Below the pieces are notes generated by a model. The model had not been told where the DNA came from. It made no database searches and saw only the letters and a program-made list of their open reading frames with translations. This document shows, piece after piece, positions 35,908 to 44,929 of a DNA stretch of 64,000 bases. The DNA lies in assembly GCF_900110855.1 (NCBI RefSeq), contig NZ_FOFA01000003.1, positions 1 to 64,000 of the forward strand, given 5' to 3'. The translations under genes and the position numbers were made by a program. Source of the stretch: Microlunatus flavus. Lineage in GTDB: Bacteria; Actinomycetota; Actinomycetes; Propionibacteriales; Propionibacteriaceae. Position 1 is the stretch's first letter; each line of letters begins with the position of its first letter.

Positions 35908-36323
35908 TGGCGGCGGGTGCTTCTCGCGTGGCCGTGACCGAGAAGGCCGCGGCCATGCTCCGCGAGCTGCGCGAGGAGCACGGCCCGCTCATGTTCCACC
36001 AGTCCGGCGGCTGCTGCGACGGGTCGTCGCCCATGTGCTTCGCGCAGGGCGACTTCCTCACCGGCGACGCCGACGTCCTGCTCGGCCAGATCGAGCCGGG
36101 CACACCGGAACCCGTGGACGTCTGGATGAGCCGCGAGCAGTTCGCGCTGTGGAAGCACACCCACCTCACCATCGACCTGGTGCCGGGTCGCGGTGCGGGC
36201 TTCTCCCTGGAGAGCCCGAACGGGGTGCGCTTCCTCATCCGCTCTCGCCTGCTCACCGACGAGGAGGACGCCGCGCTCCACGGCACCGACACGCCGGACG
36301 TCCGGGCGCAGGTCCTGCCCTAG
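35907..36323 (+). CDS. DUF779 protein coupled to the aldehyde dehydrogenase
   Basis: A 138-residue protein of the DUF779 family. The conserved segment MFHQSGGCCDGSSPMC has three cysteines and could hold a metal or respond to aldehyde, but no function is established. The ATG at 35907 overlaps the ALDH stop, so it is made together with that enzyme. A terminator follows at 36370-36404. Confidence 0.87.
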
Positions 36324-36369
36324 ACCGGCGCCTCCTGCCCACCGACCCTCGAGCGGACCCCCCGATCGG

Positions 36370-36404
36370 CGAAGTCCCCGGAGACTCGTGCTCCGGGGGC
36401 TTCG
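36370..36404 (+). terminator. Terminator after the ALDH-DUF779 operon
   Basis: A 14-bp stem with one G-T pair (left arm 36370-36383 containing GAAGTCCCCGGAG) around the loop ACTCGTG. Confidence 0.72.
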
Positions 36405-36555
36405 TCGTGCCTGCGGGGAACCCTCCGGACGTGGTCCGCGCGACCGACGTGCGCACGACCAATCGGCGAGCGACCGCAACCGAACCGACCGATCGCGAGA
36501 ACTGGAGGTGTCACCCCGTCTACGCGGCCACGAGGGCCGCGCCAGGAGAACTCCC

Positions 36556-37224
36556 ATGACCGCCGTCCTGTTCGGTTCCATCAGCACCGTCGCCGACACC
36601 TCCGAGCTCCAGCGCGCCGCCTTCAACCAGGCCTTCGCCGAGCACGGGCTCGACTGGCGCTGGGACCGCGACGAGTACGCCACCCTGCTGACCGGCAGCG
36701 GCGGGCGCGACCGGATCGCCGCGTACGCGGCCGAGCACGGCACCGACGTCGACGCCGAAGCGGTGCACGCGACGAAGTCGGCGCTGTTCCAGCGCTCGCT
36801 CGCCACGGCCGACCTGGCGCTGCGTCCCGGGGTGCTCGAGACCGTGCGCGAGGCCAAGGACGCGGGCCTCAAGGTCGGCTTCGTGACCTCGACGTCGGCC
36901 GACAACGTCGCCGCCCTGCTGTCCGCGCTCGGCCCGGAGCTGAGCGCCGACGACTTCGACGTGGTGACCGACTCCTCGACAGTTTCCGCGACCAAGCCCG
37001 ACCCCGCTCCGTACCTGACCGCGCTGTCGGCGCTGGGCGAGAGCCCCGAGGCGTGCGTCGCGATCGAGGACAACGTCGACGGGGTCGCCTCCGCCCGGGC
37101 GGCGGGCGTCGCGGTGGTGGCCTTCCCCAACGGCAACACCGCCGAGCACGACTTCTCCGCGGCGGGCGACCGGGTCGACCACCTCGAGCTCGCGCGGCTC
37201 CGCTCGCTCGTGGCGCAGTCCTGA
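36556..37224 (+). CDS. HAD-fold protein lacking the motif I aspartates
   Basis: A 222-residue protein with the cap and core layout of CbbY/phosphoglycolate-phosphatase-type HAD enzymes. Motif II (VTSTS), motif III (K in ATKPDPAPY) and motif IV (IEDNVDGVASARAAG) are in place. Motif I, normally FDxDGT, reads FGSIST: the nucleophile Asp is Gly7 and the second Asp is Ile9. Ordinary phosphoaspartate chemistry should therefore be impossible. It may be a binding or regulatory protein, or use another mechanism. The ATG at 36556 follows AGGAG. It sits 40 bp before the dioxygenase gene, so it may belong to the MysC/MysD-like operon. Confidence 0.82.
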   Translation: MTAVLFGSISTVADTSELQRAAFNQAFAEHGLDWRWDRDEYATLLTGSGGRDRIAAYAAEHGTDVDAEAVHATKSALFQRSLATADLALRPGVLETVREAKDAGLKVGFVTSTSADNVAALLSALGPELSADDFDVVTDSSTVSATKPDPAPYLTALSALGESPEACVAIEDNVDGVASARAAGVAVVAFPNGNTAEHDFSAAGDRVDHLELARLRSLVAQS

Positions 37225-37264
37225 GCGGACGCGGACCGGCGAGCGGCGGAGCAGGAGGACGAGC

Positions 37265-38062
37265 ATGATCATCACGAGGACGGAACCGCTCGGCGCCCGC
37301 GTCGAGGACGTCGACCTGGCGCACCTCGCCGAGGAGGACGTCCCGGCGCTGGTCGAGCTGCTGGCCGAGCAGGGAGTCGTGGTCTTCAGCGGCCAGCGCC
37401 TGGACGACGCCGCGTTCACCGCGTTCCTGCGGCGGTTCGGCCGCCTGGTCTTCACCGTCGGCGAGACGCCGGTGCCGGGCCACCCGGACCTCAACGTCAT
37501 CAGCAACGTGGGCCGCACGACCGCCCCGCGCAGCACGTTCCACGTCGACTCCAGCTACTTCGCCGCGCCGCCTGCCTACACCGCCCTGCGGACCGTGAGC
37601 ATCCCCACCCAGGGCGGCCAGACCGAGTTCACGAACCAGTACCGCGCGTACGAGTCCCTCGAGCCGGCGCTGCGCGACCGGCTCGAGGGACTGACCCTGA
37701 CGCACGTGGTCACCGGCGTCGAGCTGTCGGAGGGCGACGAGTCCGCCGCCGTGCACCCGCTGCTGCGCCGCCACCCCGTCTCGGGCCGGGTGGCGCTCTA
37801 CCTGACCACCCCGGCCCGGTGCGCGCGCATCAGCGGCCTCGACGAGGACGAGACGCGCGCGCTCGTCGCGCAGCTGTACGCCCACTCGACGCGGCCCGAC
37901 AACGTCCACCGCCACACCTGGGCCGCCGGTGACGTCGTCATGTGGGACAACGGCTGCGTGCTGCACCGGGCCGACCACTCCGGCGTCGTCGGGGACCGCG
38001 TCATGCACCGCGGCATGGCGACCGGGTACGCGGCGGCGGGGGACGCCGGGCTCGCCGCGTGA
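37265..38062 (+). CDS. TauD/TfdA family Fe(II)/2-oxoglutarate dioxygenase
   Basis: A 265-residue non-heme iron oxygenase. The iron triad is H93 and D95 (FHVDSSY) with H234 (VLHRAD); Arg in DRVMHRG probably binds 2-oxoglutarate. The segment AVHPLLRRHPVSGRVALYL is typical of the TauD group. It probably hydroxylates or oxidatively modifies a small molecule. The stop overlaps the MysC-like ligase start by 4 bp, so its substrate is likely the ligase substrate or product. MysH, the known oxygenase of palythine synthesis, belongs to a different (PhyH-like) group, so this would be a different tailoring step. Confidence 0.87.
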   Translation: MIITRTEPLGARVEDVDLAHLAEEDVPALVELLAEQGVVVFSGQRLDDAAFTAFLRRFGRLVFTVGETPVPGHPDLNVISNVGRTTAPRSTFHVDSSYFAAPPAYTALRTVSIPTQGGQTEFTNQYRAYESLEPALRDRLEGLTLTHVVTGVELSEGDESAAVHPLLRRHPVSGRVALYLTTPARCARISGLDEDETRALVAQLYAHSTRPDNVHRHTWAAGDVVMWDNGCVLHRADHSGVVGDRVMHRGMATGYAAAGDAGLAA

Positions 38063-39441
38063 CCAGCACCGCCTCGCTCCGGGTCGCCCCCGGAACCGTC
38101 GCGGCGCCGCGTCCGACCCGGGCCCGCCGGGCGGCCGACGCCGCCAGGACCGTCGGTGCGCTGGGGCTGCTCTCGCTCGCCCTGCCGCTCAACGCCGCGG
38201 TCAGCACCGTCGCGCTGGGGTACGCGGCGGTCGTCCCGCTGCGCCGGGCACAGGCGGCGCGCCCGCGGACCGTCCTGGTGAGCGGCGGCAAGATGACCAA
38301 GTCGCTGCACCTGGCGCGGGCGTTCCACCAGGCCGGCCACCGGGTCGTCATGGTGGAGTCGGCCAAGTACCGCTGGACGGGCCACCGCTTCTCGCGGGCC
38401 GTCGACGTCTTCCGCACGGTGCCGGACGCGCGCTCGCCGGACTACGCCGCAGCGCTGGCCGCGGTCGTCCGGGCCGAGGGCGTGGACGTCTACGTCCCGG
38501 TCTGCAGCCCCGCCGCGAGCTACCACGACGCGGCGGCGAAGACGGCGCTGGAGGGGCTGTGCGAGGTCGTCCACCTCGACCCGGACGTCGTGGCCACCCT
38601 CGACGACAAGCACACGTTCGCCGAGCTGGCCGCGTCCCTGGGGCTGCCCGTGCCCGACTCGCACCTCGTCACCGGCCCCGACGAGGTCGAGGGGGCCCTG
38701 GACCGCGCCCGCGAGGCCGGGCGCGGGCCGTACGTGCTCAAGAGCATCGCGTACGACCCCGTGCACCGGCTCGACCTGACGCCGCTGCCGCGCCCGACGG
38801 CTGGCGAGACGGCGGCGTTCGCCGCGGCGCGGCCCATCCGGCCCGACAACCCCTGGCTGCTCCAGGAGCTCGTGACCGGCGCCGAGTTCTGCGCCCACGC
38901 CACGGCCCGGAACGGCGTCGTGCAGGTCTACGCCTGCTCGCCGTCCTCGGCGTTCCAGGTGAACTACGCCTCCGTCGACGAACCCGCGATCGAGACCTGG
39001 GTGCGACGGTTCGTCGGCGCGCTCGGCCTCACCGGGCAGGTGTCGTTCGACTTCCTCGCCGACGCCGACGGCCAGGTCCTCGCGATCGAGTGCAACCCGC
39101 GCACGCACTCCGCGATCACGATGCTCGACGACCCGGTCGCGCTCGCCCGGGCCTACCTGGAGGACGACGTCTCCGTGGTGCGGCCCCGGCCGGCCAGCCG
39201 GCCGACGTACTGGCTCTACCACGAGGCCTGGCGGCTGCTGGCCGAGCCGAACCGCCGCCAGCGGCTCCGCACGGTCCTCGAGGGGCGGGACGCGGTCTTC
39301 GCCTGGTCGGACCCGCTGCCGTTCCTGCTCGAGCACCACCTGCAGATCCCGCTGCTGCTGCTCTCCAGCCTGCACCGCGGCAAGGGCTGGCTCCGGATCG
39401 ACTTCAACATCGGCAAGCTCGTCGAGGCGGACGGTGACTGA
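38059..39441 (+). CDS. mysC: MysC-like ATP-grasp ligase
   Basis: A 460-residue ATP-grasp enzyme. In cyanobacteria MysC joins glycine to 4-deoxygadusol to give mycosporine-glycine. Recognisable segments from memory of that family are VSGGKMTKSLHLARAFHQAG (74-93), KYRWTGHRFSRAVD (103-116), YVLKSIAYD, FCAHATARNG, SSAFQVNY and ECNPRTHSAITM, the last giving the metal-binding Glu and Asn. The N-terminus (about 31-60) is hydrophobic and could touch the membrane. The GTG at 38059 overlaps the dioxygenase stop. Its amino acid and core substrates here are inferred, because mysA and mysB are not nearby. Confidence 0.8.
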   Translation: MTSTASLRVAPGTVAAPRPTRARRAADAARTVGALGLLSLALPLNAAVSTVALGYAAVVPLRRAQAARPRTVLVSGGKMTKSLHLARAFHQAGHRVVMVESAKYRWTGHRFSRAVDVFRTVPDARSPDYAAALAAVVRAEGVDVYVPVCSPAASYHDAAAKTALEGLCEVVHLDPDVVATLDDKHTFAELAASLGLPVPDSHLVTGPDEVEGALDRAREAGRGPYVLKSIAYDPVHRLDLTPLPRPTAGETAAFAAARPIRPDNPWLLQELVTGAEFCAHATARNGVVQVYACSPSSAFQVNYASVDEPAIETWVRRFVGALGLTGQVSFDFLADADGQVLAIECNPRTHSAITMLDDPVALARAYLEDDVSVVRPRPASRPTYWLYHEAWRLLAEPNRRQRLRTVLEGRDAVFAWSDPLPFLLEHHLQIPLLLLSSLHRGKGWLRIDFNIGKLVEADGD

Positions 39442-40498
39442 ACCGCTGCGGGTGCTGCACCTGGCCGGCTCCGCCGTCGACGCGTTCCACGCCGACCTGT
39501 CGCGGCTGTACGCCGCCGACTGCCTGGAGGCGACCGCCGACCCGCGGCACCACACCGACCACGTGGCCTGGGTCGAGCCGGACGGCTCGTGGCGCTTCCC
39601 GGCCGACCTCGGCCGGGAGGCGGTCGCCGCCGCGCCCGCGCGGACGCTGCCGCAGGCGCTCGACCACCTCGCCGGGCTGGCGCCGGACGTGGTCGTGCCG
39701 CAGATGTTCTGCCGGCCGGGGATGACGACCTACCGCGCGCTGATCGAGCTGCTCGGGATCGCGCTCGTCGGCAGCCCCGCGGACGTCATGGCGCTCGCGA
39801 CCGACAAGGCGCGGACGCGGGCGGTGGTGGCCGCAGCGGGTGTGGCGGTTCCCGAGGGCCAGGTCGTCCGGGCGGGGGAGCGGCCGACGGTCCCGCTGCC
39901 CGTCGTCGTGAAGCCGGTCGACGCCGACAACTCCGACGGCGTGACGCTCGTGCGCGACGCGGCCGAGCTGGAGCCGGCCCTCGCGGCCGCCTTCCGCCAC
40001 GGCCGCGAGGTGCTCGTCGAGGCATACGTGCCGCTCGGGCGCGAGGTGCGCTGCGGCGTCCTCGAGCGTGGCGGCGAGCTGGTCTGCCTGCCGCTGGAGG
40101 AGTACGCGGTCGACGAGGCGACGAAGCCGGTGCGCCTCGCGGACGACAAGCTGCGCCGGGAGGACGACGGCGAGCTCGCCCTGGTGGCCAAGACCGCGAC
40201 CCACGCGTGGATCCTCGACCGCGCAGACCCGGCCGACCCGGTCGTCGCCGCGGTCCACGCGGCCGCCCGGACGGCGCACCGGGCGCTGGGGTGCCGCGAC
40301 TACAGCCTCTTCGACTTCCGGGTCGACCCGGAGGGCGGCGTGTGGTTCCTGGAGGCCGGGCTCTACTGCTCCTTCGCCCGGCAGAGCGTCATCCCGATGA
40401 TGGCCGCGGCCGCCGGCCTCGGCGTGCGGGACCTCTTCGCGCAGGCCCTGCGGACCGCCACCGCGGACGGCCGCTCAGGCGTGGCGCTCGCGCGCTGA
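39434..40498 (+). CDS. mysD: MysD-like D-Ala-D-Ala ligase homologue
   Basis: A 354-residue ATP-grasp ligase resembling MysD, which attaches serine or threonine to mycosporine-glycine to make shinorine or porphyra-334. Diagnostic segments are LHLAGSAVDAFHADLSRLYA (8-27), PQMFCRPGMTTYRALIELLG, VVKPVDADNSDGVTLV, GREVRCGVLE and LEAGLYCSFARQSVIPMMA near the C-terminus. A cell-wall D-Ala-D-Ala ligase would have different ends. The GTG at 39434 overlaps the MysC-like gene by 8 bp. The 3' end overlaps the convergent LacI gene by 24 bp. Confidence 0.82.
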   Translation: MTEPLRVLHLAGSAVDAFHADLSRLYAADCLEATADPRHHTDHVAWVEPDGSWRFPADLGREAVAAAPARTLPQALDHLAGLAPDVVVPQMFCRPGMTTYRALIELLGIALVGSPADVMALATDKARTRAVVAAAGVAVPEGQVVRAGERPTVPLPVVVKPVDADNSDGVTLVRDAAELEPALAAAFRHGREVLVEAYVPLGREVRCGVLERGGELVCLPLEEYAVDEATKPVRLADDKLRREDDGELALVAKTATHAWILDRADPADPVVAAVHAAARTAHRALGCRDYSLFDFRVDPEGGVWFLEAGLYCSFARQSVIPMMAAAAGLGVRDLFAQALRTATADGRSGVALAR

Positions 40499-41518
40499 GC
40501 CGCCGCCGGGCGCCGGTCCGGTCGAGCTGCCGGGCACGAGCGTGCCGGGCAGCAGGGCCGGCGGCGGCGCGGCCTCGCCCTCGAGCACCCGGAGCAGGGC
40601 CCGGACGCCCAGGCGGCCCAGCTCGGCCCCGGGGGACGAGAAGGCGGTCAGGGGCGGGTCGACGGAGGTGCTCATCTCGGTCGAGGTGAGCACCGACAGC
40701 ACCGACACGTCCTGCGGGACGCAGACGCCGCGACGCAGCAGGCCCGACAGCAGGCCCGGCGCCGCGAACTCGTTGAAGACCAGGACGGCCGTCGTCCCCG
40801 GCCAGGAGGCGAGGATCTGCTCCGCCGCCGCGCGGCCCGACTGCGTCGTCTGCTCGCACTCGAGCACCACGGGCTCGAAGCCCTGCTCGGCCGCGATGCG
40901 GCGGAAGGCCGCCTCCGCGCGGACGTAGGGGCCGTAGGCGCGGAAGCTGGCGTCGGCCTGGCTGCCAGTGACCATCACCATGCTCCGGTGCCCGAGCCCC
41001 CGCAGGTGGTCCACCGCGTCCTGCATCGTGGCGTCGAAGTCGATGTCGACGTAGACGAGGTCGCGCAGGTCGCCCGAGCGGCCGATCAGGGCGAACGGCG
41101 TGCGGGTCGCGCGCAGCACCTCGACGCGCGCGTCCTCGAGCTGGACCTCCATCAGCAGCACCCCGTCGACGAGGCCCTGGCCCACGAGCTGGGTGAGCTC
41201 GGCGGCGTCGTTGCTGATCGGCCAGAGCACCAGGTGGTAGCCCGCGGCGCTCGCCGTCCGTGCGGCGCTGGTCACGAACTCCATGCCGGAGGCGCCCAGC
41301 TTGTGCTCGATCGCGGGGTAGACCAGCGCGACCACGCGCGTCCGCCGGCTCGCCAGCGCCCGCCCGACCATGTTGCGGCGGAACTGCAGCCGCACCATCG
41401 CCTCCTCGATGCGACGCCGCGTCTCCGGCGCGACCGGCTTGGAGTTGTTGACGACGAAGGACACGGTGGCGATCGACACCCCGGCCGCCTCCGCCACCTC
41501 GCGCATCGTCGCCGCCAT
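40475..41518 (-). CDS. LacI family transcriptional regulator
   Basis: A 347-residue repressor. The N-terminal helix-turn-helix (MREVAEAAGVSIATVSFVVN, starting at residue 5) and hinge are followed by a periplasmic-binding-like sugar domain. The ATG at 41518 is the conserved start. It is divergent from the ABC sugar-importer genes, with a LacI-type dyad in the spacer, and probably represses that cluster until a sugar ligand appears. Confidence 0.9.
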   Translation of the reverse strand: MAATMREVAEAAGVSIATVSFVVNNSKPVAPETRRRIEEAMVRLQFRRNMVGRALASRRTRVVALVYPAIEHKLGASGMEFVTSAARTASAAGYHLVLWPISNDAAELTQLVGQGLVDGVLLMEVQLEDARVEVLRATRTPFALIGRSGDLRDLVYVDIDFDATMQDAVDHLRGLGHRSMVMVTGSQADASFRAYGPYVRAEAAFRRIAAEQGFEPVVLECEQTTQSGRAAAEQILASWPGTTAVLVFNEFAAPGLLSGLLRRGVCVPQDVSVLSVLTSTEMSTSVDPPLTAFSSPGAELGRLGVRALLRVLEGEAAPPPALLPGTLVPGSSTGPAPGGGSARERHA

Positions 41519-41658
41519 CCCACCCCGTCCTCGCGCGCCTGTGACCCCGACCGTACGGCCTCGGCCGGGCCCTCGGCCCCGCTCGCCGGAGAAGTCCTGC
41601 GCGTCGGCCCTTGACAGGAGCATGACGTCGATCACAGACTCCTCGCAAGGCGCAGTAA

Positions 41659-41666
41659 AGCGCTTA
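41659..41666. promoter_or_regulatory. LacI-type operator core AAGCGCTT
   Basis: AAGCGCTT is an 8-bp palindrome with the central CG typical of LacI/GalR operators, inside GTAAAGCGCTTAAC, about 95 bp before the ABC binding protein start. Confidence 0.5.
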
Positions 41667-41761
41667 ACCGCAGGCTGACCAGCCGTTCGACCGGGTCCAC
41701 CGACCGGGTCGCACGGCCATCGGGTCACGCCCGCGGACGAGTCGGCAAAGGAGCACGACCC

Positions 41762-43030
41762 ATGACCACGAACAAGATCACCACGATGCTCACCCGGCGG
41801 CGGACCACGCGCTGGGCAGCCGTGGCCGCGCTGGCCGCGCTCGCGCCGCTGTCGCTCGCGGCGTGCGGCGGGGGCGGCTCGGCGGGCTCCTCGGGCGGGG
41901 ACGCCGGGGCCACCGTGTCGAGCCTCAAGGTCCTCGACTACTACACCGACGAGCCCGGCAAGACCCAGATCGGCGACATGCTGAACGCCTGCGGCACGTC
42001 GATCGGGGTGGGGAGCATCGAGCGCGAGGCCGTGCCCGGCCCGACGCTCATCCAGAAGGTGCTGCAGCAGGCGTCCTCGAAGTCCCTGCCCGACGTGCTG
42101 ATGCTCGACAACCCCGACATCCAGCAGATCGCGGACACGGGTGCGCTCGCGCCGCTCGGCGACTTCGGGCTCACCGCGGACGGCTACGCGCCGGGCCCGG
42201 TGGCCGCGGCCACGGCCGACGGCAAGCTCTACGGGCTCCAGCCCGGCGCCAACACGATCGCCATCTTCTACCGCAAGGACGTGCTCGAGAAGGCCGGCGT
42301 CAAGCCGCCGACCACCTGGGACGAGCTGCGGACGGCCGCCAAGAAGCTGACCGTCGGCAAGCAGTACGGCTTCGCGTTCAACGCCACCGCCGACTACGAG
42401 GGCGCGTGGCAGTTCCTGCCCCCGATGTGGACCAACGGCGGCGACGAGACCGACCTGAAGTCCCCGCAGGTCGCGCAGGCCCTGCAGCTGTGGAAGGACC
42501 TCGTCGACGACGGTTCCGCGTCCAAGAGCGTCGTGAACTGGAAGCAGTCCGACGTCAACGACCAGTTCATCGCCGGCAAGGCCGCGATGATGCTCAACGG
42601 CCCGTGGCAGGAGCCCGCGCTGGACAAGGCGAAGGTCGACTACGGCGTCGTCCCCTTCCCGGTGAACACCGCCGGCCAGACCTCCGTCGCCCCCCTGGGC
42701 GGCGAGGCGTGGACGGTGCCGATGACCGGCGACAAGGCGCGGATGGCCAAGGCCGCGGAGCTGGTCAAGTGCATGAACTCCGACGACAACCAGATGCTGC
42801 GCGCCAAGCAGGGCGGTCTGGTGCCCACCAAGCTCGCCCTGGCTTCCCAGTTCAAGTCCGAGGTCCCGGCCATGGCCGGGTTCACCGACGCGGTCGGCCA
42901 GGCCCGCGCCCGGACCGGCAAGCTCGGCGCGAAGTGGCCGGACACCGCCAAGACGATCTACACCGGCGTCCAGCTCGTCCTGACCGGCCAGGCCGCGCCG
43001 GCCGACGCCATGGCCAAGGCGGGTGCCTAG
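41762..43030 (+). CDS. ABC transporter sugar-binding lipoprotein
   Basis: A 422-residue extracellular solute-binding protein (family 1). The lipobox LSLAAC places the lipidated cysteine at C35, followed by a Gly/Ser linker. Typical segments are PDVLMLDNPDIQQIADTGAL and IFYRKDVLEKAGVKPPTTWDEL in two parts. It captures a carbohydrate for the two permeases downstream. The ATG at 41762 follows AAAGGAG. The ligand is unknown; the ThuA/MocA neighbours suggest a disaccharide or modified sugar. Confidence 0.9.
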   Translation: MTTNKITTMLTRRRTTRWAAVAALAALAPLSLAACGGGGSAGSSGGDAGATVSSLKVLDYYTDEPGKTQIGDMLNACGTSIGVGSIEREAVPGPTLIQKVLQQASSKSLPDVLMLDNPDIQQIADTGALAPLGDFGLTADGYAPGPVAAATADGKLYGLQPGANTIAIFYRKDVLEKAGVKPPTTWDELRTAAKKLTVGKQYGFAFNATADYEGAWQFLPPMWTNGGDETDLKSPQVAQALQLWKDLVDDGSASKSVVNWKQSDVNDQFIAGKAAMMLNGPWQEPALDKAKVDYGVVPFPVNTAGQTSVAPLGGEAWTVPMTGDKARMAKAAELVKCMNSDDNQMLRAKQGGLVPTKLALASQFKSEVPAMAGFTDAVGQARARTGKLGAKWPDTAKTIYTGVQLVLTGQAAPADAMAKAGA

Positions 43031-43055
43031 GGGCCGGGCGAGCAGGAGCCGACGC

Positions 43056-44021
43056 ATGTCGGCCACCCGCACCCTGGCCCCCGGCTCGGTCGCCCCGGCG
43101 ACCGGGCCGGCCCCGGCCGCCCGGCGTCGCAGCGGGAGCCGGCGCCTCGAGGAGCTCAGCAAGGTGCTCTTCGTCGTGCCGGCCGCGCTGGCCATCGTCG
43201 CCCTCTTCGGCTACCCGGTCGTCAAGAACGTCACGATGAGCTTCCAGGACTACGGGCTCAAGACGTTCTTCACCGGGGAGGCCCCGTTCGTCGGGCTCGA
43301 CAACTACGTGACGGTGGTGAGCGATGCCGTCTTCAGCAAGGCGGTCGTCAACACCGCGCTGTTCACGCTGGGCTCGATCGCCGGGCAGTTCGTCCTCGGC
43401 ATGCTGCTCGCGCTGTTCTTCCACCGGAGCTTCCCGCTCAGCGGGGTGCTGCGCGCGCTGTTCCTGCTGCCGTGGCTGCTGCCGCTGATCGTCGGCAGCG
43501 CCGCCTGGCGGGCGATCATGGAGCAGGACAGCGGCATCCTCAACCTGACCCTGGAGCGCCTGGGCGTCGTCGACACCCCGGTGCCGTGGCTCACCTCGCC
43601 GAACGTCGCGCTGCTCGCGGTCGTCCTGGTCAACATCTGGCTGGGCATCCCGTTCAACCTGACGCTGCTCTACAGCGGCCTGCAGGACATCCCCGACGAG
43701 CTGTACGAGGCGGGGGCGCTCGACGGGGCCACTGGGTGGCGGGCCTTCTGGCAGATCACCTGGCCCAACCTGCGCCCGGTGGTGAGCGTCGTGCTGATGC
43801 TCGGGGTGATCTACACCCTCAAGGTCCTCGACATCATCCTCGGGCTCACCCAGGGCGGGCCGGCGAACGCCACCCAGACCATCGCGATCCAGTCCTACCA
43901 GCGCTCCTTCGTCGAGTTCACGTTCGGCGAGGGCGCGGCCCTGAGCAACATCCTGATCGTCATCTCGCTGGTCTTCGCCGTGATCTACCTGCGGGCCAAC
44001 CGGCGTCAGGTCGACGAGTGA
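43056..44021 (+). CDS. ABC sugar permease, MalF/UgpA type
   Basis: A 321-residue inner-membrane permease with six or more helices. The ATPase-coupling EAA loop reads [20 protein letters not shown]. The N-terminal 35 residues are Arg/Ala-rich. The ATG at 43056 has AGGAG seven bases before. It follows the binding protein by 25 bp and pairs with the next permease. No ATPase gene is present; a shared MsiK-type ATPase elsewhere is the usual solution in actinobacteria. Confidence 0.9.
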
Positions 44022-44044
44022 GCACCCGGGAGAGGGAGGCAGCC

Positions 44045-44929
44045 GTGCCCACCACGACGACGAGCACCGCCGAGACGTCCGCCCGGGAGACGACCGCCCG
44101 ACCCCGGACCAGGGCGTCCCGGCGCCGCGCCCGCGGGCCGGTCCGGACGGCCATCGCGATCGTCCTGCTCGCCCTGCTGCTCTTCCCGGTCTACTGGATG
44201 CTGAACATCTCGCTGCAGCCCAGCGGCAACGCGCTGTCCGGGACGTTCTTCCCCGCCCACCCGAGCCTCGACGGCTACCGCTCCGCGGTGGCCGACCAGG
44301 GCGGCCACCTGCTGATCAGCCTGCTGGTCGCGTCCGGGACCGTCGTGGTGACGCTGGTCGTCGCGGCCCCCTGCGCGTACGCCCTGGCGCAGTTCCGGTT
44401 CCGCTGGATCAGCTGGGCGCTGCTCGCCATCCTGATCTCGCAGATGATCCCGGGCATCGTCATCGCCAACGCGCTCTACACCGCGTACGAGCGGCTCGGG
44501 CTGCTCGACTCGGTCCCGGGCCTGATCATCGCCAACTCGGCGAACGCCATCCCGTTCGGCATCCTGATCATGCGCTCCTTCATGCTCGGGGTGCCGCCGT
44601 CGATCGTCGAGGCCGCCCGCGTCGACGGGGCCGGCCTGGTGCGGGCGTTCCTGTCGATCGTCGTCCCGATCAGCCGGAACTCGCTGATCACCGTCGGGCT
44701 GTTCGCCTTCCTCTTCGCCTGGAGCGACTTCGTCTTCGCGCTCACCCTGACGACGAAGGGACAGGTCGTGCCCGTCACCCTGGGCATCTACACCTACCTG
44801 GGCGCGCACATCGCCAACTGGAGCGCGGTGATGGCCACCGCCGTGCTCGCCTCGATCCCGGCGATCGTCCTGCTCGTCGTCGCCCAGCGCTACATCGCCG
44901 CCGGCGCCACCGGCGGTGCGGTCAAGTGA
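44045..44929 (+). CDS. ABC sugar permease, MalG/UgpE type
   Basis: A 294-residue permease. The EAA loop reads [21 protein letters not shown] Thr/Arg-rich N-terminus of about 35 residues precedes helix 1. The GTG at 44045 with GGGAGG five bases upstream is preferred; an in-frame GTG at 44018 overlapping the previous stop by 4 bp is also possible and adds nine residues. It overlaps the longest form of the ThuA gene by 4 bp. Confidence 0.88.

Follow-up and report, generated by a model that had tools for sequence, protein, structure and literature searches.

A putative mycosporine-like amino acid finishing operon without mysA and mysB in Microlunatus flavus

Genes for a HAD-fold protein and a TauD-type oxygenase are described as conserved in the mycosporine-like amino acid (MAA) clusters of Actinomycetota, Pseudomonadata (as printed) and Bacillota in the available part of the GATOR-GC preprint (PMC11888242), which also cites unpublished expression of the Rhodococcus fascians D188 operon as yielding shinorine, palythine and palythine-serine. 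That survey required genes for a 3-dehydroquinate synthase (DHQS), an O-methyltransferase (O-MT) and an ATP-grasp protein, so that operons without the core genes mysA and mysB lie outside its reach. In the open-access literature, searched by title and by the opening of the abstract (most subscription papers fall outside this scope), no report of core-less MAA operons in Actinomycetota was found. Here we describe such a locus in a 64,000-nucleotide stretch of the Microlunatus flavus genome (the window; contig NZ_FOFA01000003.1), where genes for a HAD-fold protein, a TauD/TfdA-family oxygenase, a MysC-type ligase and a MysD-type ligase form one cassette (Table 1). The locus is very probably an MAA operon minus mysA and mysB, and we regard it as a real, selectively maintained 'finishing' operon without core genes. 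An earlier note on this DNA had put it forward as a candidate for an undescribed system; given the reports of HAD and TauD in MAA clusters, it is better seen as a variant of a described operon.

Operons for comparison were collected by MysC and MysD searches of overlapping genome sets, the larger of which are samples. MysC was found at E <= 0.001 in 5 of 40 genomes that include the window's own (three matches being nearly full length), in 17 of 391 genomes of the order, 8 of 396 of the phylum (one distant), 12 of 394 of the class (two distant) and 27 of 341 of the family of genome G025; MysD was found in 2 of 198 genomes of the window's family. As a rule the best four candidates per genome were scored in the order, phylum, class and G025-family searches, so second copies may have been missed, and up to 10 in the MysD search; a scan of genome contigs gave at least two loci. 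The total is 41 distinct true MysC operons from 39 genomes, one of which has two, and one metagenome-assembled genome that came from the contig scan. L010, a duplicate of the G359 operon, was counted once, and two operons cut by a contig end (L039 and L092) leave 39 that are uncut. The ATP-grasp proteins of G688 and G954 (31-33% identical) were not counted as operons, the stretches fetched around them holding no other MAA gene.

Both MysA and MysB are encoded in 36 of the uncut operons, MysA without MysB in one (L061), and neither in two, those of the window and of G003, a relative from the same genus. TauD is present in 37, counting a split gene (L038) and a MysD fusion (L048); its position is between mysB and mysC in a group of operons that includes L009, L042, L040 and L097, and after mysD elsewhere. 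The order of the core-less cassette, HAD-TauD-MysC-MysD, is that of the actinobacterial operon HAD-MysA-MysB-TauD-MysC-MysD minus mysA and mysB. The 40 bp between HAD and TauD contain no match to either missing gene, and G003 shows the same HAD-TauD adjacency with a gap of 114 bp.

The absence of the core genes extends well beyond the locus. No match to MysA or MysB was found in the 64-kb window at E 1e-10, as the earlier note had read it, and none above the level of AroB or generic methyltransferases in the whole genome (G000, in which the window lies on contig C9; 4.79 Mb, rated 100% complete). A family search of this genome with PF01761 gave a single match, which is read as AroB because the open reading frames around it are read as the end of chorismate synthase, shikimate kinase, 3-dehydroquinate synthase and elongation factor P. 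Protein queries were run over 16 genomes: 13 MAA genomes, G000, G003 and a non-MAA congener (G018). The MysA query reached E <= 2.5e-67 in 13/13 MAA genomes, and gave only AroB-level matches in G000 (29%, 3.2e-21), G003 (31%, 7.7e-24) and G018 (5.4e-22). The MysB query recovered the operon gene in 12 of the 13, the exception being G1062, whose operon is without mysB; it gave a generic-level match in G000 (4.4e-11) and G018 (6.3e-11), and none at 0.001 in G003, whose genome is a single contig rated 100% complete. Candidates for core genes elsewhere in the window's genome, sought by both routes, thus came down to AroB and a match at the level of generic methyltransferases. The split pathway entertained in the earlier note, with its core genes elsewhere in the genome, does not hold up, as neither G000 nor G003 has a MysA or MysB homologue above these levels. 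Because no ring-making gene was found, the bacterium probably acquires the mycosporine ring from outside or has an unrecognised way of making it. That mysA and mysB are simply absent from the assembly, or unseen elsewhere, might be argued from the 26 contigs of the window's genome, but is hardly credible given the adjacency of HAD and TauD, its recurrence in the one-contig relative, and a MysA query that succeeds in every MAA genome and in neither core-less one.

The remaining enzymes resemble those of other MAA operons. The oxygenase matches Pfam TauD (PF02668) at 3e-57, its sole Pfam match, and among solved structures the closest in sequence are those of (R)-phenoxypropionate dioxygenases and further TauD/TfdA enzymes. 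The HxD motif, the distal H and the R, which we take to be the ligands of iron and 2-oxoglutarate, are all visible in the alignment, and the cassette TauD is a probable palythine-type tailoring enzyme. MysH, from which the earlier note had rightly set this oxygenase apart, is of the phytanoyl-CoA-dioxygenase type according to the available part of PMC10510106, a type that the TauD match does not fit; in actinobacterial MAA operons a TauD is the oxygenase usually present (37/39). Two variants of the gene were seen in the survey. MysD and TauD share one 619-aa frame in L048 (8325-10184; G291), possibly a fusion, in which case TauD would be tied to the product of MysD, and in L038 (8347-9056; G098) the TauD match is split into two segments, which may reflect gene breakage or a divergent middle part.

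The MysC-like protein has no Pfam match and scores 402.5 bits against NCBIfam PRK06849 ('hypothetical protein'), slightly below the cut-off of 406. Across residues 62-460 it shares 52.5% identity with the gene in the MysC position of the Nostoc HK-01 plasmid cluster, which is annotated as 3-dehydroquinate synthase, O-methyltransferase, hypothetical protein, an opposite-strand gene and D-Ala-D-Ala ligase. A 34-row tree places it, together with the Nostoc HK-01 MysC, in a branch of 29 rows with 100/100 support, separate from five other ATP-grasp proteins, with a program warning that long branches meet where the MysC branch joins. The MysD-like protein matches Pfam Dala_Dala_lig_C at 1e-21, stays under the curated cut-off in every one of the 25 (of 40) NCBIfam matches listed, and groups with Nostoc MysD, not with the two best Ddl-like proteins of its genome (Shimodaira-Hasegawa-like approximate likelihood ratio test, SH-aLRT, 100), in a quick-method tree whose separating branch is very long. 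These placements support, over long branches, the membership of the two putative ligases in the MysC and MysD clades that the earlier note had read from recognised segments, and ligation of glycine to 4-deoxygadusol is predicted for the former from its sequence. The predicted MysC fold, with a predicted local distance difference test (pLDDT) score of 80.6, taught nothing about the substrate. Residues 21-58 of MysC (window 38119-38232) are predicted to form a long N-terminal helix with many hydrophobic residues, which may perhaps be a membrane anchor. In G003 the MysD frame (L007:14762-16279) is extended by 150-odd residues resembling a separate repeat protein, either a fusion or the next gene starting without an intervening stop.

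All four genes are under purifying selection in both core-less species, and all four reading frames are intact in both. Between G000 and G003 the ratio of nonsynonymous to synonymous divergence (dN/dS) is 0.27 for HAD, 0.22 for TauD, 0.23 for MysC and 0.23 for MysD (0.248, 0.210, 0.228 and 0.235 in a second alignment), values inside the spread of 11 core-containing pairs (0.10-0.34; HAD 0.10-0.64). Synonymous divergence (dS) of the cassette is 0.35-0.56, against 0.27-0.58 for seven genes around aroB (two partly covered); all these rates refer to the time after the two species split. It is improbable, then, that the cassette is the decaying remnant of a former MAA operon and serves no function today, as the loss of two genes and the rarity of MysD in the family might suggest: dN/dS of 0.21-0.27, dS as for the genes around aroB and four intact frames in both species speak against it, as do additional HAD and TauD relatives from environmental sequences, which are 74-89% identical.

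Residues that are otherwise invariant tell a similar story. Both core-less species keep 84/85 such positions in MysC, 64/65 in MysD, 55/55 in TauD and 48/50 in HAD (251/255), the changes in both being T112S and G175D in HAD, C294S in MysC and P303V in MysD; single core-containing operons show 0-3 changes in HAD, 0-4 in TauD, 0-3 in MysC and 0-3 in MysD. The comparison covers 22-26 other sequences per gene, chosen without G281, the duplicate L010, two distant proteins, three plasmid ATP-grasp outgroups and 13 later-added loci, and for TauD without the split L038 gene. This conservation argues that the type of substrate is unchanged, and by their sequences the cassette proteins resemble ordinary MAA enzymes rather than proteins that are decaying or shifting to another substrate. 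The second reading of the earlier note, that the ligases were repurposed and that MysC and MysD now join amino acids to another self-made cyclic enol or acid to give a non-canonical product, is unlikely. The loss of the core genes and the residue changes common to both species fit it; however, only four of the 255 positions have changed, core-containing operons show similar counts, nearly all invariant positions of the two ligases are untouched, and no new enzyme has joined the cassette, the flanks of which differ between the two genomes.

By parsimony, we infer descent from a HAD-mysA-mysB-tauD-mysC-mysD operon through loss of mysA and mysB before the species split; two separate losses are possible. 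No genes match between the flanks of the two cassettes, and therefore either the cassette moved or its surroundings were rearranged. A recent horizontal gain is not favoured as the whole story, since dS is like that of the seven genes around aroB and the GC content is that of the window's genes, although the unmatched flanks count against this rejection. The core-less pair groups with four environmental HAD/TauD pairs (SH-aLRT 100) in a four-protein tree built by a quick method without bootstrap; the environmental pairs were matched solely by equal longest contigs, of 6537, 6295, 3031 and 5377 bases. The 3031-base pair, if it does lie on one contig, hints at a third core-less lineage, because complete HAD and TauD genes leave too little of it for mysA and mysB (about 3.5 kb).

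The HAD gene was overlooked in the earlier note's otherwise accurate list of three genes. It sits 40 bp upstream of TauD and is present in 39/39 uncut operons, the window's included. Among solved structures its product is closest to Rhodobacter sphaeroides CbbY (E 4.5e-41), and the predicted model (pLDDT 94.5) compares with CbbY (PDB 4uar, 4uau) at a template modelling (TM) score of 0.89 and 37% identity. A gap-free alignment of motif I pairs LFGSIST with LFDVDGT of CbbY (4uar), so that Gly and Ile replace two aspartates that are presumably the nucleophile and the acid/base of CbbY. None of the 159 aligned proteins has Asp at either column; they comprise the HADs of the 39 operons and the 120 best relatives from the database, one of which is the window's HAD itself. 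Phosphoryl transfer by the usual HAD mechanism depends on the motif-I aspartates, and since both are missing a catalytic phosphatase role appears unlikely; the operon HAD would be a pseudo-phosphatase. The available part of PMC11888242 makes no mention of this loss, the conservation of which argues against a phosphatase step in MAA operons. The HAD gene is kept where mysAB are lost (window, G003) and where TauD is absent (L008, L094), and therefore a non-catalytic role with the ligases is proposed; most likely this role concerns both MysC and MysD.

Our best guess, with a probability of about 0.5, is that the operon would act on an imported 4-deoxygadusol-type core. A cyclohexenone of this type, or another mycosporine precursor, would be released by neighbours and taken up; MysC would ligate glycine to give mycosporine-glycine, MysD would attach a further amino acid, yielding a shinorine-type imine, and TauD may oxidise one amino-acid arm to give a palythine-type MAA, with the HAD pseudo-enzyme perhaps assisting the ligases non-catalytically. 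Several points weigh against such salvage. We know of no importer for a gadusol-type core, and no importer gene is linked to the operon: the sugar-type ATP-binding cassette (ABC) genes downstream are separated from it by the convergent LacI-like gene and lack equivalents around the cassette of G003, and no conserved transporter emerges beside the operons: across the 41 loci compared, any gene other than the six recurs in 7 at most. The cassette is also rare, as the count of MysD in the window's family indicates.

Salvage must be weighed, too, against synthesis of the core in the cell without MysA, which would explain the same sequence facts. In this main rival, which we hold to be unlikely, 4-deoxygadusol or a demethyl analogue would arise from a shikimate-pathway intermediate (3-dehydroquinate from AroB) and be finished by the operon. 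We know of no enzyme that converts 3-dehydroquinate to the core. The O-methyltransferase, which was reportedly found by Pope in 2015 to be essential and common to both core routes, has no MysB counterpart above generic level here, and TauD also occurs in core-containing operons, giving no sign of having taken over core synthesis. In favour of the rival, an AroB gene is present in the window's genome and L061 is an operon without mysB. In addition, shinorine hardly changed when the cyclase gene of Anabaena variabilis was deleted, and inhibitor results implicate the shikimate pathway (PMC9918943 and PMC10384724, available parts), and Synechocystis PCC 6803 is described as making MAAs without mysA (PMC9918943, available part). 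Slightly less likely still is a route by which MAAs would be built from the cell's own carbon through an undiscovered core synthesis without MysA and MysB, the HAD partner holding a phosphorylated intermediate of the ligases.

The layout around the cassette is summarised in Table 1. The TauD, MysC-like and MysD-like genes overlap by 4 bp and 8 bp in turn, as the earlier note had reported, and the 3' end of MysD overlaps a LacI-like regulator gene convergently by 24 bp. An aldehyde-dehydrogenase-like gene and a small gene precede the cassette; the names of flanking genes (aldehyde-dehydrogenase-like, LacI-like, sugar-type ABC) are readings of the sequence made without a family search. A promoter and terminator scan of 36200-41800 gave none, and is uninformative at a genome GC content of 74%.

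Table 1. The core-less cassette and its downstream neighbours in the window
Feature	Position	Strand	Remark
HAD-fold protein, 222 aa, CbbY-like	36556-37224	+	First gene of the cassette
HAD-TauD gap, 40 bp	37225-37264	+	Site of mysA and mysB in the HAD-A-B-TauD-C-D form
TauD/TfdA-family oxygenase, 265 aa	37265-38062	+	Pfam TauD
MysC-type ATP-grasp ligase, 460 aa	38059-39441	+	Tree placement and conserved residues
MysD-type ligase, 354 aa, GTG start	39434-40498	+	D-Ala-D-Ala-ligase superfamily, tree placement
LacI-like regulator	40475-41518	-	Sequence reading
Sugar-type ABC genes	41762-44929		Sequence reading

Several of the surveyed operons depart from the common form in other ways. In L061 (5011-10137; G1062) mysA is followed directly by mysC with no mysB in the stretch, and methyltransferase matches elsewhere in G1062 are at generic level only. 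In L053 and L054 (G499 and G637) MysA is just 37-39% identical to the queries, is located before HAD and has longer frames (638 and 600 aa by gene-finder prediction), which by sequence marks it as a divergent cyclase type. G1167 has two MAA operons, L092 and L096; L096 is 57-63% identical to L044 in HAD-MysA-MysB and 80-87% in TauD-MysC-MysD, as if one module had been swapped.

Whether cores can be made without MysA is disputed because the Anabaena deletion left shinorine nearly intact (PMC9918943 and PMC10384724, available parts). A direct test case is offered by the complete genome of a heterotroph in which MysC, MysD and TauD are under selection and no MysA or MysB was found, and the one-contig relative G003 would be the cleanest natural test of a MysA-independent route if the endogenous route is true. 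If the core is salvaged instead, sunscreen precursors would be shared goods of microbial communities, and searches that demand mysA and mysB would overlook such users.

Among known systems, CbbY, a xylulose-1,5-bisphosphate phosphatase, shares its fold with the cassette HAD but keeps the aspartates, where the HAD has Gly and Ile. MysI of Nostoc sp. UHCC 0926, as described in the available part of PMC10510106, shares the TauD/TfdA superfamily and a proposed role in palythine formation with the cassette TauD; unlike the window's TauD, it is accompanied by mysF and mysE on a plasmid. The same source describes Tolypothrix sp. PCC 7910, where mysCD and a truncated mysB are all that is present; as here, mysA is missing from the MAA locus. 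Tolypothrix is, however, a single cyanobacterial case with a pseudogene remnant, whereas here there are two species, with no remnant found and with selection tested. Compared with the canonical mysABCD cluster (for example, that of the Nostoc sp. HK-01 plasmid, AP018319.1), the cassette shares the MysC and MysD clades, lacks mysA and mysB, and has HAD and TauD in addition. With the actinobacterial MAA operon in the available part of PMC11888242, where TauD is proposed to make palythines, the cassette has the HAD, TauD, MysC and MysD kinds in common, again within a single cluster.

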